From NCBI RefSeq assembly GCF_029625215.1, contig NZ_CP121197.1:4216001-4280000 (forward strand): a stretch of DNA of 64,000 nt. The letters are read 5' to 3'. Every line of letters begins with the position of its first letter. Position 1 is the stretch's first letter. This DNA comes from Aurantibacillus circumpalustris (lineage in GTDB: Bacteria > Bacteroidota > Bacteroidia > B-17B0 > Aurantibacillaceae). This document shows positions 3,738 through 17,800 of this stretch, piece by piece. The notes under the pieces were generated by a model. The model saw only the letters and a list, made by a program, of their open reading frames with translations, was not told where the DNA came from and did not search any database. The translations under genes were made by a program, and so were the position numbers.

Positions 3738-3808
3738 CGGTTACAAACGCTTATGAGCATTTGTAACCGTTTGTTTACACACCAGGCGAGTAGTTAGCGG
3801 TAAAGCCT
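3738..3808. repeat. Hairpin and left boundary of cassette-like region
   Basis: A perfect 10-bp inverted repeat, CGGTTACAAA (3738-3747) with TTTGTAACCG (3760-3769), is followed by a CAGGC/GCCTG pair (3784-3810 region) whose loop carries GTTAGCGGT (3795-3803). That nonamer is the exact reverse complement of ACCGCTAAC at 4576-4584, just beyond the two genes to the right, the arrangement expected of the two ends of one gene cassette. Confidence 0.55.
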
Positions 3809-3870
3809 GACCACAAGCCTTCCAGACATACAGACTTGCAAAATTCATCCATTTTCATTAAATTAGAGTT

Positions 3871-4401
3871 GTGAAAAAACGAAAAAATTCAGGCTTAGAC
3901 TTCATCGTTGACAAATTGACGAATTCAATTGAAAACGTTATAACAGGGGACAGTTTCCCGACTTCAATAGTTCTACTTTCAAAAGATGAATTGAAACTTT
4001 TGACTAAAAAAACAGGTTGGGTTTTTGATTGGAAATCGGAATTCAAATTTCCCGAGCGCGACGTTTATAAACTGACAATTGTAAATAATCAAAACATTAT
4101 CCAAGGACTTTTGAGTCTACAGATTAAGAATGACCATGTTTATATTCATTTAATTGAAAGTGCACCTTTTAACAAGGGACAAGTTAAAATTTATTCTGGG
4201 GTTCCAGCCAACTTAGTAGCTTTCGCCTGCCAGTTATCCTTTCAACGTGGACATGAAGGTAATGTATCATTCATTTCAAAGTCACAAATAGTAAAACACT
4301 ATGAAGAAAGTTTAGGAGCGGTTCATTTCGGTGGACGACTTATGATTATTGAAAAAGAATCTGCGCTTAAATTAATTGACAAATATTTTAAAAACTTCTA
4401 A
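3871..4401 (+). CDS. GNAT-fold acetyltransferase-like protein
   Basis: 176-aa protein with a GNAT-like C-terminal half. A pair of long strands (about 66-110, LTIVNNQNIIQGLLSLQI and VYIHLIESAP) is followed by a helix, the HEGNVSFIS strand, and a closing YEESLGAVHFGGRLMIIE segment that matches the last GNAT strands. The pyrophosphate-binding loop is poorly conserved (about 118-125), so activity is uncertain. GTG start at 3871. Two bases separate it from the tiny downstream gene, so the two are co-transcribed. The pair lies between complementary boxes (3795-3803 and 4576-4584). It could be the toxin of a GNAT-type toxin-antitoxin pair or a free-standing enzyme; no substrate can be named. Confidence 0.6.
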   Translation: MKKRKNSGLDFIVDKLTNSIENVITGDSFPTSIVLLSKDELKLLTKKTGWVFDWKSEFKFPERDVYKLTIVNNQNIIQGLLSLQIKNDHVYIHLIESAPFNKGQVKIYSGVPANLVAFACQLSFQRGHEGNVSFISKSQIVKHYEESLGAVHFGGRLMIIEKESALKLIDKYFKNF

Positions 4402-4402
4402 C

Positions 4403-4561
4403 ATGAAAAAAACAAAAGAACTTGACGTTGACTTTATAGGTGGACAAGGTCCGCTGACAAAAGAAGAGGAGAAAACAATCTCAGATTTCATAAAATCGCG
4501 TAGAGCAAAAAGACATTCGTCTTCAAAAAAAGTTTCTACGCGTAAAAAGGCTGTAGCTTAG
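4403..4561 (+). CDS. 52-aa basic protein paired with GNAT-like gene
   Basis: Starts 2 bp after the GNAT-like stop codon. The N-terminal half holds a distinctive VDFIGGQGPLTKEEE motif followed by a short helix; the C-terminal half is Lys/Arg/Ser-rich and looks disordered. I recall similar short GGQGxLTKEEE proteins beside GNAT genes in other Bacteroidota, but this is memory, not a search. The likely role is a partner or antitoxin of the GNAT-like protein. A longer in-frame start at 4376 would overlap the upstream gene and is less likely. Confidence 0.6.
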   Translation: MKKTKELDVDFIGGQGPLTKEEEKTISDFIKSRRAKRHSSSKKVSTRKKAVA

Positions 4562-4573
4562 AAACGAAGGCAC

Positions 4574-4766
4574 ATACCGCTAACACGGGTTTGGCGCCAG
4601 CGGACATTTGTATATGCATTTGCAAAATATTTTGCCTGCTTCGCAGACTGTTTTTCGTTTTTGCAAATGCTCAAAATATTTTAACTTCACACTGGACATC
4701 GGAACTTTTTAGCATCGTCGAAATCGTTTTTTCGCCGGCGCAAAGCCCGAATCCATTATGCGTAAC
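4574..4766. repeat. attC-like nested inverted repeat after GNAT pair
   Basis: The outer arms are ACCGCTAAC plus CGGGTTTGGCGCC (4576-4598) and CGCCGGCGCAAAGCCCG (4733-4749), complementary with mismatches. Inside is a perfect 12-bp repeat GCATTTGCAAAA (4616-4627) with TTTTGCAAATGC (4659-4670), which itself encloses a CTGC/GCAG hairpin. The right end carries TTATGCG (4755-4761), complementary to CGCATAA at 6086-6092 after the next gene. The layout resembles an integron attC site, but the boxes deviate from RYYYAAC/GTTRRRY. Confidence 0.55.
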
Positions 4767-4801
4767 CAAGCCGACAGACGAACATTTAGATACATTTTAA
4801 T

Positions 4802-6055
4802 ATGACCAAGCTGATTACTATCCTTTTTTTCACGTTGACCTTTTTGGCTCACAGTCAGACAGACACTATTTTTAAAAAGGACGGAGATTTGATTTTTTGT
4901 ACTATAACCTATGTTAACAACAATAATATCTTTTATAATACAAAAAGATCTGAAGGAAATTATATTTCACATGATGATGTAAAATACTATTCCAAAAATG
5001 GGAAAAGGGCTATTCGATCTTTGTCAGAGGTAAAACGCAATTCTCTAAAAATTAAAGACAGTCTTAACATTAAAGACAGCGCAATAATATTTCTTATCAG
5101 TCCAGCTAATTTCAATCAATCAACGTTCAAGATAAAAATGAATCGGCGCGACATATATGAGTTAAAAGGAGGAGAAATTATTAAATGCGTTTTCTTTAAT
5201 GAGGGTGAATTAAAAATTATGTCTACTGAGACAAAGGATGGTGAACAAGTTAGTTATCAAATAATCAACTTAGACTTAGAGTTTCCCAAAACACATTATA
5301 TCTTTTGCTCTTCTGCACCAGGCGAGACAAAATTGATTGATGAACAAATTGGGGAAGATCTTATCTCCAATAAGCCGTTGACAATCATCGAGGAAGATTT
5401 GCTCAATCCAATTATCCGATCAGCTTTATTTTCAACACCGAAAACAGGAACAGGTTTTCTCTTGACAGAAACCGGCTTAGTTGTAACAAACTACCACGTC
5501 ATAGAGAAAGCTAAAAAAATCGAATTGAGTGGTATTAATGGTAGCTTTGACAAGTCTTACACCGCAAAGGTTGTCGTAGAAGACAAAAAGAATGACCTTG
5601 CTATTTTACAAATTGAAAATAAGGATGCTAAATATGATCCAACACCTTATTCCATCAGAAGTAAAAATGCGGAGACTGGTGAAGATATTTTTGTGCTCGG
5701 TTATCCAATGATAAGATCAATGGGTGAAGAAATAAAATTAACCACCGGTGTGATTAGCGCGAAAACAGGGTATAAGGGTGATGTAACGACATATCAAGTA
5801 TCAGCTCCAGTGCAGGGTGGTAATAGTGGAGGCCCTTTATTTGATAAGCAAGGGAATGTTGTCGGGATAATCAACGCAAAGATTTTGGGCGCAGAAGGAG
5901 TAACTTATGCAATTAAGACAACCTATTTAAATTCACTGATCGATTTACTTCCAAATAAACCAGTCTTGAATGAATTCAGTAAGCTTGACAAATTGACTTT
6001 AGAAGAACAAGTGAAGTTGATTTCTAGGTTTGTATATATCATTAAAATAAACTAA
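4802..6055 (+). CDS. Secreted HtrA-like (S1C) serine protease without PDZ domain
   Basis: 417 aa with a signal peptide (about 1-19, ending AHSQ). An N-terminal half of unknown, mostly beta structure (about 20-210) precedes a trypsin-like domain (about 215-385). The catalytic triad is readable: H232 in VVTNYHVIE, D265 in KNDLAIL, and S342 in GGNSGGPLFD, with the substrate-pocket segment TYAIKTTYL. HtrA/Deg proteases normally carry one or two C-terminal PDZ domains; this one has none. It is flanked by the attC-like structures at 4574-4766 and 6086-6215, so it may be a captured cassette gene. Probably periplasmic; substrate unknown. Confidence 0.85.
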   Translation: MTKLITILFFTLTFLAHSQTDTIFKKDGDLIFCTITYVNNNNIFYNTKRSEGNYISHDDVKYYSKNGKRAIRSLSEVKRNSLKIKDSLNIKDSAIIFLISPANFNQSTFKIKMNRRDIYELKGGEIIKCVFFNEGELKIMSTETKDGEQVSYQIINLDLEFPKTHYIFCSSAPGETKLIDEQIGEDLISNKPLTIIEEDLLNPIIRSALFSTPKTGTGFLLTETGLVVTNYHVIEKAKKIELSGINGSFDKSYTAKVVVEDKKNDLAILQIENKDAKYDPTPYSIRSKNAETGEDIFVLGYPMIRSMGEEIKLTTGVISAKTGYKGDVTTYQVSAPVQGGNSGGPLFDKQGNVVGIINAKILGAEGVTYAIKTTYLNSLIDLLPNKPVLNEFSKLDKLTLEEQVKLISRFVYIIKIN

Positions 6056-6085
6056 AAACGGAACAATAATATGGAGGCTTGGCAA

Positions 6086-6215
6086 CGCATAACACGGGGC
6101 AATTGCGTCAGCGGGTGGACGAGGGAATAGACACATTGAGCAATAAATAAAGTTGGGTGCGTTTAGACAGGTGAAGCTCCGAAAGCCCGCCGGCGCAAGC
6201 CCCGAAACCGCAAAT
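6086..6215. repeat. attC-like inverted repeat after protease gene
   Basis: It begins with CGCATAAC (6086-6093). The main arms are CGGGGCAATTGCGTCAGCGGG (6095-6115, 21 nt on the + strand, read here only as arm limits) and 6186-6204, which begins CCCGCCGGCGC and ends CCCCG; they pair with a few mismatches. The overall shape and GC-rich arm sequence match the structure at 4574-4766, although the genes beside them are unrelated. The right terminal box is diverged (aaaccgcaaatag). Confidence 0.5.
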
Positions 6216-6304
6216 AGCCCAGACTTTATCAGACGGCAGACATTTTGATAAATACTAAGTAGGACAATAAAAACAAAAGATCAATTTAAACAAATATTAA
6301 AACT

Positions 6305-6763
6305 ATGGAAAAGTTACAATTCAAAGTAAGCATTAATGCCCCAGTGGCCAAGATATATGATTTTATGCTTGGTATCAATCGTAAATCAACTTATGAGCAA
6401 TGGACTTCTTTGTTTAACCCAACATCCAGCTATGAAGGAAGTTGGAACAGGGGAAATAAAATTCTATTTGTTGGAGTAGATGAAAAAGGAGAAAAGGGAG
6501 GTATGGTTTCCAGGATAGCAGAAAACATTCCTAACAAATTTGTGTCGATTCAACATTACGGTCTATTAAAAGCTGATAAGGAAATTACAGAAGGACCAGA
6601 GGTTGAAAAATGGGCAAACGGATTTGAAAACTATACCTTCAAAGAAAACAATGGGAACACAACCGTTACCGTTGATTTAGACATAGTAGAAGAATTTTTA
6701 AGTTATATGAATGAGACCTATCCCAAAGCACTAGACAAATTGAAAGAAATATGTGAAAAATAA
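6305..6763 (+). CDS. SRPBCC (START-like) domain protein
   Basis: 152-aa single-domain protein of the SRPBCC fold that binds hydrophobic ligands in a deep cavity. The N-terminal strand KLQFKVSINAPVAKIYDFML is the usual opening, with beta strands through the middle and the long C-terminal helix YPKALDKLKEICEK. No signal peptide, so cytoplasmic. The family includes AHSA1-like and polyketide-cyclase-like proteins, and no substrate can be inferred. It follows the second attC-like repeat but shows no matching right-hand box, so cassette status is unclear. Confidence 0.85.
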   Translation: MEKLQFKVSINAPVAKIYDFMLGINRKSTYEQWTSLFNPTSSYEGSWNRGNKILFVGVDEKGEKGGMVSRIAENIPNKFVSIQHYGLLKADKEITEGPEVEKWANGFENYTFKENNGNTTVTVDLDIVEEFLSYMNETYPKALDKLKEICEK

Positions 6764-6950: not shown

Positions 6951-7271
6951 ATGAGAAGAGATGTTTTCCAAGCCATAGCCGACCCAACCAGGCGAGCAAT
7001 TATTACCCTAATCGCATTACATGCAATGACACCAAATGCCATTGCCGAACATTTTGATACGACGCGACAGTCCGTTTCTAAACATTTGCGCATTTTAACA
7101 GAGTGTGAATTGGTATCGCAAAAACAACAAGGCAGAGAAATCTACTACCAACTTGAAATAAACAAAATGAAAGAAATTGACAAATGGCTGAATCAATTCA
7201 GGAAGATTTGGGAAGCACGATTTAACCAACTCGACGAAGTATTACTAACACTAAAAAATAAGAGAAAATGA
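6951..7271 (+). CDS. ArsR/SmtB-family transcriptional regulator
   Basis: 106-aa winged-helix repressor. The start [18 protein letters not shown] is the classic ArsR helix 1-2. The recognition region is [23 protein letters not shown] (about 26-48), followed by the wing [12 protein letters not shown]. No metal-binding ELCVCD-type motif is present, as usual for the ArsR branch paired with SRPBCC proteins. It overlaps the next gene by 4 bp (ATGA), so the two are translationally coupled. It probably represses its own promoter through the inverted repeat on the -7 box. Confidence 0.92.
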
Positions 7272-13123: not shown

Positions 13124-13373
13124 TTCATTGGAAAGATGAATAAATCGTATTTAACAGTGTTAGATTGCAAGCTTAACTTTAAATTTACAACTGACCGTTA
13201 ATTCTTAGGGGTATGTTAACTAAATCTATTAAACTATAGAAACAAAGTTCTGTTTAATCGATAAATCCAAAACATACTGCTACAATGATCACTGAACCGT
13301 CAATCGCAAAGTGAAATAACCTATTTATTCTATTTGGACTTGAATGAAGCTGGGAGTTATTAGAAAAACGCTA

Positions 13374-14711
13374 CTACTTTTTAATAATATTGATACCATC
13401 CCAGGTAATCCCATCGTCATTATGCACCTGCGTTTTCATGTCTTTATTCGGATCATACCTCTTAGCAAGTGGTATTGGCGCACTGTTTTCGATCTTCATT
13501 TTATTTACGGTGTACACTGCTTCAATTACAAAATCAGAATGTTCATTCGGTGAAAACCAGTGTTTATTCGTCATATTAAGATTCACATTGTACTGTAAGT
13601 TTTTAGGAAACCATTTTGATTTAACCTGCTGAAACTCCACCACGCTTGTAAAAATTGGGTTTTCGATACCAATACCATACAAAAATAAAACAGGACGAAT
13701 AATCACTGGGATCACAATGCTACCCGATCTTACCACTTTTACAATGGCATAGCTGGCCACATCTATATAAATACTGCCTTCCTGTCGCATGTGATCTACT
13801 TTGCCTTTACTCTTAAAATCAATCACCATTAACTCACTATTGTTGTATGTGGATGATTTGGCAAACGTATACTTATACTCTTTAAATTCATTGGTATCTA
13901 AAAAACCATCAGGATGTTTGGTAATGTCACCTTGTCTTAAAATCTCGTTAGGTCCGCCAAACGAAGAAGCTAAGTCAATAGCCACACCATTTGGTTCCTG
14001 TGCTTTTACAGGTTCTGTTTTCCCTTTCTTTTTATTTTTTGCTTCTTGTTTGGCAACACGTTTTTTTTCTTTTGCTTCAGCTTCCTCTCGTTCTTTTTTC
14101 ATAAATGCAAGTTCATGTATATCCTTTTCCTCCCTAAATAACAAAAGCTGATTTTGATTTTTTACTGTATCCAGATAATTTGGGTAATAGGTTTTAAAAA
14201 CACCTTCGTTGCACTTGATAAAGTTTTTGTTCTCTAACACTTTTTCACGGTAATAGGCTTCTGACTGAAAAGGCATATTGGCGTAATTATTTTTAATGCG
14301 CAGAATTGCAAGCTTTAAATAAAACTCAGGAGGCTGCGGCTTTATTACCACTTCTTTCAAATCAACAGAACTTTGTTGCAAACGTATATTTAAGGTAGCA
14401 TGAACATTTTTAAGGGCGACAGCTTGCGGCTTGTAACCAAAATTGCTGAACATTAACGAATCGTTCATCATCTCTTCAGACACATATAGGTCGAAACGAC
14501 CAACTTCATTCGTAACAATGCCTATCAATTGTTTTTTTAACGACACGGTTGCAAACGATAAAGGGTCGTTTGTTGTTGCGTCAACTACACTGCCTGACAC
14601 AAGAATTTTATTTTGTGCTTCTACAGAAAATTGTACTGCAACTACTAACAGTAAAAGAAGACTAGGTTTTTTTATAGCTACTCTTTTTAAATGTGTAAAT
14701 AATGCTGTCAT
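13374..14711 (-). CDS. Exported protein with carboxypeptidase-regulatory-like domain
   Basis: 445 aa. The signal peptide is about 1-33 (ending SVEAQ). A CarboxypepD_reg-like beta sandwich (about 36-115, VSGSVVDATTNDPLSFATVSLK, IGIVTNEVGRFDLYV) matches the N-terminal module of TonB-dependent receptors and of DUF5686-type proteins. No TonB plug or barrel follows; the remaining 330 residues are mixed, with a Lys/Glu-rich charged stretch (about 205-240) that is probably helical or disordered. Likely periplasmic or outer-membrane attached. It is 180 bp downstream of the kinase operon, on the same strand, and may be separately transcribed. Confidence 0.75.
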   Translation of the reverse strand: MTALFTHLKRVAIKKPSLLLLLVVAVQFSVEAQNKILVSGSVVDATTNDPLSFATVSLKKQLIGIVTNEVGRFDLYVSEEMMNDSLMFSNFGYKPQAVALKNVHATLNIRLQQSSVDLKEVVIKPQPPEFYLKLAILRIKNNYANMPFQSEAYYREKVLENKNFIKCNEGVFKTYYPNYLDTVKNQNQLLLFREEKDIHELAFMKKEREEAEAKEKKRVAKQEAKNKKKGKTEPVKAQEPNGVAIDLASSFGGPNEILRQGDITKHPDGFLDTNEFKEYKYTFAKSSTYNNSELMVIDFKSKGKVDHMRQEGSIYIDVASYAIVKVVRSGSIVIPVIIRPVLFLYGIGIENPIFTSVVEFQQVKSKWFPKNLQYNVNLNMTNKHWFSPNEHSDFVIEAVYTVNKMKIENSAPIPLAKRYDPNKDMKTQVHNDDGITWDGINIIKK

Positions 14712-14891: not shown

Positions 14892-17800
14892 CTATTTTCC
14901 AATGTGTAAAAGATCCTCAAATTTCAAAAAAGTACTGTAAGTATCCTTAATGGCAAAAGAACTTGAATAATTACGTAATTGCAAAGCGTAAGCATTTAGT
15001 GTTTCAGAATTCTTATCCTTTAGAAAATCTGAAAGCCGTTCTGAAAAATCTTTAATGTCGTCGATACTCATGATTGGCTTAATATGATGCCATTCATCAA
15101 TGAATAATTCCTTTAATTGAAATTTTATTTGATCTTCCGTTAAAAATTCTTGTGTTTGTTCTTTCCCAGGTTCAATCTCAGATACATCCTCCGAAGTTTT
15201 GAGGTAGCGCGATAAAACATGTAAAAGTTTAGTTCTGCTGATTGGTTTCGATAAAACTTCATTGAAAAGAATTTGACCCTCATTCTGTTGTTTTATTACA
15301 GAAGATGCCGTTAAAGCAAGAACGGGTAACTCACTGAATTCATCCATTGATTTGATAATTTTGGTAGCTTCATAACCGTCCATCACAGGCATCATCAAAT
15401 CGATAAGCACAAGGTTGGGTTTTATCTTTTCCAATATTTCAATCGCTTCAACACCATTGCTAGCGCTTATCACCCGAACCTGAGTTTCTTCTAAAAAACC
15501 TTTTATAACATCCCTATTAAGTTCAATGTCTTCAACTAATAAAATGGTTTTTCCCTTAAAATTATAGATCACATTTTTCGCTTTTGTTTCAACTTCATCT
15601 TCATTTTCAACGATTGCAATATCAATGTCATTTAAAAAAACTGAAAAAAGGCTTCCTTCGCCAATAGAACTTTCAAGTTGAATTCGTCCGCCCAACATGT
15701 CTACCAAACGTTTGGTAATTGCTAGTCCTAAACCCGTTCCCCCATATTTCCTGTTACTCTGTCCGTCTTGTTGTTTAAATGCATCAAAAATCAATTTTTG
15801 CTGACTCATTGGAATACCAATACCTGTGTCTTTTATTCCAAAAACCACATTCACTTTAGATGAACTTGGATCAGACTTAAAAATATTAACACTTAGTGAA
15901 ACTGTACCGTGGTCGGTAAATTTAAAGGCATTTCCCAACAAATTAAACAAGATTTGTCGAATCCGTGTTTCATCAATAAGTAAATGTGTTGGAATAGTTT
16001 CGTTGAGAAAAACAATTTCAAACCCAAGGTTTTTTTCTTCAGCACTTTGAGAAAAAACTTGCTTAAATTCTTCCAAAAGTAGCTTGAGATTAATTGGTGA
16101 ATTTTGAATGATCATTTGACCGGCTTCGATTTTGCTCAGGTCAAGAATATCATTAATAAGTGATAAAAGATTTTTACCCCCGTTTAAAATTCCATCAATG
16201 TATTTTTTTGATTTAGTATCCGTGTTATTGATCTTAAGTAATTCAGAAAAACCAAGTACTGAATTAAGTGGAGTACGTATTTCATGGCTGATGTTAGCTA
16301 GAAATTCGCTTTTTGCTTTATTAGCATTTTCGGCTTCTTCTTTTGCTAGAAGGAGTTTCTCCTGAACTTCTTTCATTTTGACGATGGCATCGGAAATAAT
16401 TTTCTTTTGACTCTCTGCAATTTGAAGGTTATTCGCCATCACAATTTTATTATAATAAATCGAAAACATTTCTGACAAGGTATTCAGTAATTCTCTTTCC
16501 TCATCCAAAAAGGGATTGGTCTTATTCACATAAGGTGCCGGTTGATACAAAACTTCAATGCTTCCACTTTTACCATCTATCAAATTAAAATTCGCCCTCT
16601 GCTTAATAGTTGAAACTTTAAAGTTTGTGTCGAAGAATTCCTGCTCATCAAATACAATTCTTGCTGAACATATTTCAGGAAATTGCCATCCCTTCGGAAT
16701 CAGGTTTGCTATATTTGTCAAAACAGAAGGAATGGTTTGGGTATCGTCTTGTAGTATCTGCGAAACCAAATAAATAGTTCTAAGTTCTTTAACCCGCTCT
16801 TTTAATTGATAACTGGTATTCTCTTTTTCTTTACTTACCCGAATACTATTAATACCTAATGAAAGATTATTAGCAAGTCTTTCTAATAAAATCTTTGCGT
16901 TTTCATCAAATGCATCAGAATTTGACGAATAGATACATAAGCAGCCTATTATATTCTCATCAAATCTTATTGGTAACGCTATGGAAGAATGAAAGCCGAA
17001 TTCCCTTGCCTTATCTTTCCAAGGAGTAAAGCTTCCTGAATCTGAAAGGTTGTTTGTGATGATTGTTTTATGATGAAGAAGGCATTCAACCGTTGGACCC
17101 TTACTTAATTTTTCGTCGCTTAAAGAAATGTTAATGTCTTTTAAATATTCAGTCTCGCCATAGCTGTATATAGGGATAACAGTTTGATTTTGATTGATCT
17201 CATTTGGCTTTTCACAAATCCATACAAGCTTATGTCCACCGGTTTCCACAATCACTTTACATAGTTCTTCAATTAAACGCCTCTCTTCTTTGGTGCGCAG
17301 AATAATGTCATTTACATGATTCAGCATCTCTAACTCGAGGTTAGACTTTTTTAATTTTTGATCGGCGTTAATTCTAAGCGTAAGGTCTTGTATAATAAGA
17401 TAAATGAATTTCTCATCATCAATTTGAACGGTATTTAAACCAGCTTCGATAATCATCTGCTCGCCTTTCTTATTACGAACACCTATCTGGTTAGTTTTTT
17501 TCTTCGACTGACTAATCGTTTTTTGCAGGTCATCTTGAATTAAAAACTCAATGGATATGCCCTTTAATTCATTAAAACTATAACCAAACAAATGCTCTGT
17601 TTCGGTATTTATACCCTGAATTGTAAGTTGTTGATCTAAAATAAGAATAGGATTTGGAGCCGATTCAATTATTTTCCTAAACTTTTCTTCACTTTTTATT
17701 AATGCAAGCTCAGCTTCTTTTTGTGCGTTAGTATTTTTTGCCACAATAGAAACTCCAAGCAATATTCCTGCCGAGGTATAGGCAGGTGCTAATCTTGTAC

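Follow-up and report, generated by a model that had tools for sequence, protein, structure and literature searches.

A probable two-cassette orphan array of an integron-like system in the Bacteroidota bacterium Aurantibacillus circumpalustris

The window, the whole 64,000-nucleotide stretch of DNA analysed here, lies on the complete 4.60 Mb chromosome of Aurantibacillus circumpalustris. We find that positions 3738 to 6215 of the window most probably hold a two-cassette orphan array of a Bacteroidota integron-like capture system, whose integrase, carrying a HARP-like domain, is encoded elsewhere in the genome; we put the probability of this reading at about 0.87. The system is integron-like but not a canonical integron, since its integrases are without the IntI domain and its boxes follow another consensus. 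The features of the array are given below in window positions; here and throughout, a slash inside a motif marks the junction.

3738..3792, + strand: attI-like left junction, a stem-loop CGGTTACAAACG..CATTTGTAACCG, then ..GCGAGTA/ ahead of cassette 1
3793..3801, + strand: left box of cassette 1, GTTAGCGGT
3871..4401, + strand: cassette 1 ORF of 176 aa, perhaps GNAT-like; it opens a conserved gene pair
4403..4561, + strand: second ORF of cassette 1, 52 aa, with a ELDVDFIGGQGPLTKEEEK.. motif, partner of the 176-aa gene
4576..4762, + strand: attC1, with right box ACCGCTAAC (4576-4584), arms 4586-4603/4733-4749 and 3' box ATTATGCG
4755..4762, + strand: left box of cassette 2, which is also the attC1 3' box; ATTATGCG, originally GTTATGCG
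4802..6055, + strand: cassette 2 ORF of 417 aa, with a trypsin-like/HtrA-type serine protease domain at residues ~214-380
6085..6215, + strand: attC2, with right box CGCATAAC (6086-6093) and arms 6095-6115/6186-6204; its 3' box lacks the GTT

The sequence-only reading had described two gene units bounded by complementary boxes and separated by long inverted repeats. The box ACCGCTAAC is indeed the exact complement of GTTAGCGGT, but the left box lies at 3793-3801 and not at 3795-3803. The second box pair is also present, with TTATGCG one base away from the position given for it (4756-4762, not 4755-4761), and the arms of both repeats lie exactly where they had been placed. The right box CGCATAAC implies that the left box of cassette 2 originally read GTTATGCG, from which we infer that its first G has mutated to A; the cut-site G of the attC1 3' box is thus now an A (ATT for GTT). 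The GTT expected behind attC2 is missing (CCCCGAAACC/GCAAATAGCC), and G/CAAATAGCC is found at 6210. Either a secondary site used for insertion (..GAGTAG/CAAATAGCC) or a short deletion may account for this. The segments 4733-4754 and 6188-6209 are direct repeats, 86% identical.

Exact 9-nt inverted pairs 400-1600 bp apart are frequent in the window by chance (808 pairs, with 5 of the form GTTR+5), so the boxes alone cannot carry the case for cassettes, and their complementarity was dropped as proof. What stands above chance in the window is the whole site. With attC-like sites at 4576 and 6085, 1.5 kb apart, and no integrase, the window matches the CALIN criterion (at least two attC sites less than 4 kb apart, without integrase), which is met for the Bacteroidota attC type, not for the canonical type. 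Neither an integrase nor a remnant of one was detected in the window by tblastn. The left junction reads ..GTA/GTTA, as in five attI-like copies elsewhere in the genome, a resemblance that is confined to the junction and the architecture. We read the window as an ageing, CALIN-like orphan array of two cassettes with damaged right ends, and the state of its boxes points to little or no activity today. No empty site can be read at this locus, which is not shared by any close relative: for the BON-domain gene upstream, a comparison with 39 relatives gave a single weak match. ArsR-type regulator genes trail both the window array (6951-7271) and an integrase-bearing array of the same chromosome (L036 reverse 15709-16002); they share 64% DNA identity, perhaps as a former cassette in common, or by coincidence.

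The 176-aa product of cassette 1 had been called GNAT-like. The weak motif SFQRGHEGNVSF is there, while Pfam, NCBIfam and PDB give no match to the ORF. The gene occurs in 65 of 395 genomes of the class, distributed over 42 genera, with up to 75% identity, and homologues of the 52-aa ORF follow it in most loci inspected. We take this spread to mean that the pair has travelled widely. In some genomes an attC remnant lies directly 3' of the pair. It is possible, and untested, that the two genes form a toxin-antitoxin pair.

A covariance model was built from 40 sites of other genomes, with no sequence of the A. circumpalustris genome included. Only two matches at E<=1 are returned in the window, attC1 (4576-4766, 31.0 bits, E 2e-4) and attC2 (6085-6215, 27.3 bits, E 1e-3). 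These scores are modest; the matches are exactly the two repeats on which the earlier proposal of integron-type cassettes without a local integrase was based, and they support it. Across the 40 aligned sites, 85.6% of the combinations in the 18-pair stem are standard pairs, compared with 52% after shuffling, and the stem covariation score reaches 0.739, against 0.181 for shuffled and at most 0.15 for slid alignments. An A.C mismatch in the stem, reading T.G on the opposite strand, is conserved in 36/40. Folding with DNA parameters revealed that the bottom strand is the more stable one in 33/40 sites for the arms and in 37/40 for the full sites, as well as in 10/10 sites of the own genome; at attC2 of the window both strands are equal in fold energy, and the strand bias is weaker there. 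The central spacers are 1 and 5 nt long, and conserved mismatches lie where extrahelical bases would be obvious, as judged without a protein-bound structure. The box has the composition GTTRNNNNY, with further conserved bases downstream, and not the RYYYAAC and GTTRRRY of canonical attC sites.

The chromosome carries about 25 attC-like sites at a dozen places. Applied to the whole genome, the covariance model gives 17 matches, several of them at new places; further attC-like sites found in this way lie at 2935894-2936648, 49875, 3827874, 2299121, 3739227, 4108938 and 2625732. The additional arm copies that the sequence-only reading had proposed to search for do exist: the arm sequence of the window sites occurs at six places, and sites of other arm families near these copies keep the frame AAC-stem...stem-C-GTT. 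The search proposed for an IntI-type recombinase yielded two tyrosine recombinases, both without the IntI-specific domain, in two complete integrons. In each, the recombinase gene is followed immediately on its 3' side by an attI-like site and then by cassettes with matching 9-nt boxes. Their genes, about 270 kb and 2.9 Mb from the window, are the following.

4,492,849-4,493,997: integrase of 383 aa (INT-A/INT-B family), a tyrosine recombinase
1,337,943-1,339,097: integrase of 389 aa (INT-A/INT-B family), a tyrosine recombinase, beside recA

We notice that recA directly adjoins the second gene (1337943-1339100; L037 6764-9101). At both genes the attI-like site runs in the same direction as the integrase and presents a stem-loop, then ..TATAAGGTA/GTTA, then the cassettes. 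Three more attI copies without an integrase head other arrays in the genome. In the arrays at 3.47-3.48 Mb, the 9-nt start box complements the end box in every cassette (for example GTTATAGGT and ACCTATAAC). In the array at 4.487-4.493 Mb, the 9-nt boxes match except at one junction, which is broken by an IS3-like insertion. The inserted element is a two-ORF insertion sequence inside a cassette (L036 reverse 13223-14391).

A 663-bp cassette is present at three loci with 0-1 differences, and its flanks switch exactly at G/TT. To its left lies an attI-like site at one locus and an attC arm at the other two, and its attC is 84% identical to attC1 of the window over 187 nt. The copies are what cassette insertion predicts and are hard to explain otherwise; the evidence for recombination is indirect only.

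Beyond this genome, matches to the covariance model at E<=1e-4 were observed in 148 of the 296 sampled species of the phylum and in 84 of 140 genera, and the integrase at E<=1e-60 in 65 of the 296 species. The integrase is found in 56 of 87 genomes of the order. At least 571 relatives of it were found in genome contigs, mostly from Bacteroidota, and the neighbourhood statistics refer to the best 80 of them. Around these 80 genes we counted 93 sites in 302 kb downstream and 6 in 642 kb upstream. For the 54 pairs of consecutive sites, all six variable box positions match in 35, and the mean of 4.89 matching positions out of 6 compares with 2.43 after shuffling, with a maximum of 3.0 in 1000 shuffles. 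A downstream site was detected at 39 of the 80 loci; at some of the others the contig ends there. Draft contigs of the relatives (L051, L056, L060, L063, L067, L068, L075) often break off within some 100-450 bp on the 3' side of the integrase, a pattern that repeated copies of attI in the genome would lead one to expect. Many relatives have an attI-like site directly 3' of the integrase, with a stem and then ..TA/GTTR or ..CAA/GTTR. These attI sites are predictions, made from their position and the conserved junction.

The catalytic residues are conserved in both integrases of A. circumpalustris. TIGR02249 aligns in two pieces, skipping about 178-238, and scores below its cut-off. Residues 185-240 of VchIntIA (2A3V) have no counterpart in INT-A or INT-B, and the insertion of IntI1 is absent from both and from all 32 relatives aligned. 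The nearest NCBIfam family is NF040815, 'site-specific tyrosine recombinase/integron integrase', for which both proteins score just below the cut-off. The structure model of a relative (pLDDT 88.6) resembles XerA and VchIntIA. A phage collection yielded matches to part of the integrase only.

The N-terminal domain was modelled separately (pLDDT 91.6). Its best solved match in Foldseek is the HARP substrate-recognition domain of SMARCAL1 (4o66, probability 0.93), which is weak at E 0.046, followed by the N-terminal region of XPB; hmmsearch against the PDB reaches 4o66 at E 0.25, again weakly. In Pfam, HARP (PF07443) is found in 3 of 25 sequences with a best E of 0.0014, and DUF5710 in 11 of 25 at 3e-5. 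The presence of the domain is not shown for every relative. HARP domains recognise DNA forks and junctions, so it is plausible, though inferred, that the N-terminal domain reads the folded attC. We infer that the integrase acts on attC-like hairpins (..NNNNNNAAC-A-stem...stem-WWMC-GTTRNNNNY..) folded from the bottom strand and recombines them with the attI-like site, and that a cut at G/TT allows circular cassettes to be inserted and excised. The distant integrases of the genome would serve the window sites in trans, if at all. The recombination chemistry and the action in trans are likewise inferences.

The same type of site accompanies clinical resistance genes. The tet(X2) gene of Myroides odoratimimus p63039 forms a complete cassette (GTTATGTGCC...GGCACATAAC, then an attC of 86.6 bits), with 10-nt complementary boxes (L185 5019-6185) and a Bacteroidota-type attC on both sides (4812-5012, 6200-6339). 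On Acinetobacter plasmids and on pHH1107, tet(X3) is immediately preceded on its 5' side by a truncated member of the integrase family ('xerD'/TnpF). We also notice tet(X3) between a truncated family integrase and a cut-off attC loop (L181 6052-8206). On plasmids of Klebsiella and Aeromonas (L184 6142-7763), blaVEB-3 has another truncated member immediately to its 5' side and sits at an attI-like junction ..ATTAGGGA/GTTAGCGGTAATTT. In class 1 integrons, blaVEB cassettes carry a Bacteroidota-type attC of 55.2 bits (L186 4931-5070; L187 5931-6070), and the covariance model gives no match on the classical neighbour cassettes of the same records. From these sequences, the Bacteroidota system appears to have packaged tet(X) and blaVEB. 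The case of blaVEB-1 was not used as proof that IntI1 moves a Bacteroidota attC; PMC8024014 describes how the cassette is lost via neighbouring attC sites.

Several other explanations of the window were considered. Stem-loops between genes, flanked by 9-nt boxes of a kind that is common by chance (808 inverted pairs), could be transcription terminators or another fixed structural RNA, and simple terminators had been named beforehand as what would refute the cassettes. We find this reading scarcely tenable. The sites share an AAC..GTT frame, cluster downstream of one integrase family, bound mobile units exactly, and show stem covariation throughout the phylum; this reading is ruled out by the cassette copies together with the linkage seen phylum-wide. 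Palindromic repeats scattered in the genome might also recall MITE-like miniature transposons or REP-type repeats between genes. However, the repeated unit is a gene with its site rather than a palindrome alone, and its flanks are box-complementary for each gene, so this very improbable reading was rejected too.

Canonical integron cassettes with IntI-type attC, left behind as a CALIN, are a further reading, which we regard as unlikely. The cassette logic, the G/TT cut point and the bottom-strand bias are the same, and the blaVEB-1 cassette with a Bacteroidota-type attC is also found in class 1 integrons. However, the integrases of this genome have no IntI domain and fall below the IntI cut-off, the boxes are GTTRNNNNY and not GTTRRRY with central spacers of 1 and 5 nt, and the covariance model finds nothing on the remaining cassettes, of classical type, in the class 1 integrons (L186/L187). 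The absent domain and the differing box consensus also support the suspicion, voiced from the sequence alone, that this is a different cassette system. We keep the reading of the window as an orphan array of the Bacteroidota system.

A broader hypothesis, to which we give somewhat less than even odds, is that of a second integron lineage with an origin separate from IntI. It would use an Xer/XerA-like recombinase with a HARP-like junction-binding domain for the folded attC in place of the IntI domain, would be widespread in Bacteroidota, and would be the source of the tet(X) and blaVEB cassettes of Gram-negative pathogens. A cassette system whose sites can be detected in half of the sampled Bacteroidota species would amount to a major channel of gene exchange that has gone unrecorded. 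It would also assign a definite function to the 'xerD' whose place beside tet(X) is unexplained, suggest an origin of the blaVEB cassettes, and make the need for the IntI domain in integron recombination directly testable.

Surveys have found integrons nearly absent from Bacteroidetes: earlier only In0 was known, and now one complete integron, in Salinibacter ruber (PMC9024848). The IntI domain is treated as defining for integron integrases (PMC9668308, PMC8138268). We found no earlier description of a Bacteroidota cassette system in the open-access literature, a search that did not cover preprints and subscription papers. Papers on the 'xerD' beside tet(X) present it as an adjacent recombinase without a known role (PMC7473080, PMC11194056); so far 'xerD'/TnpF has not been described as an integron-like integrase, nor tet(X) as a cassette belonging to it.

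With integrons of the IntI/attI/attC type, the Bacteroidota system shares an integrase gene with an attI-like site beside it, directional arrays in which most cassettes hold a single gene and the start box of a cassette complements its 3' box, and hairpin sites with a more stable bottom strand and a G/TT junction. In contrast, its integrase has an N-terminal HARP-like domain and no IntI-specific domain, its attI follows the integrase gene on the 3' side and the array runs in the direction of that gene, and its sites have a longer box (GTTRNNNNY), spacers of 1 and 5 nt and a conserved A.C stem mismatch. Like a CALIN, the window has two attC-like sites 1.5 kb apart and no integrase nearby, but the sites do not follow the canonical IntI consensus, and the integrases reside elsewhere in the chromosome. 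By sequence, the closest solved structures are those of Xer recombinases, archaeal XerA (PDB 5hxy, 4a8e), which also rank with the nearest when the folds of the core and catalytic domains are compared, whereas the Bacteroidota integrase is linked to cassette arrays and bears the extra N-terminal domain.
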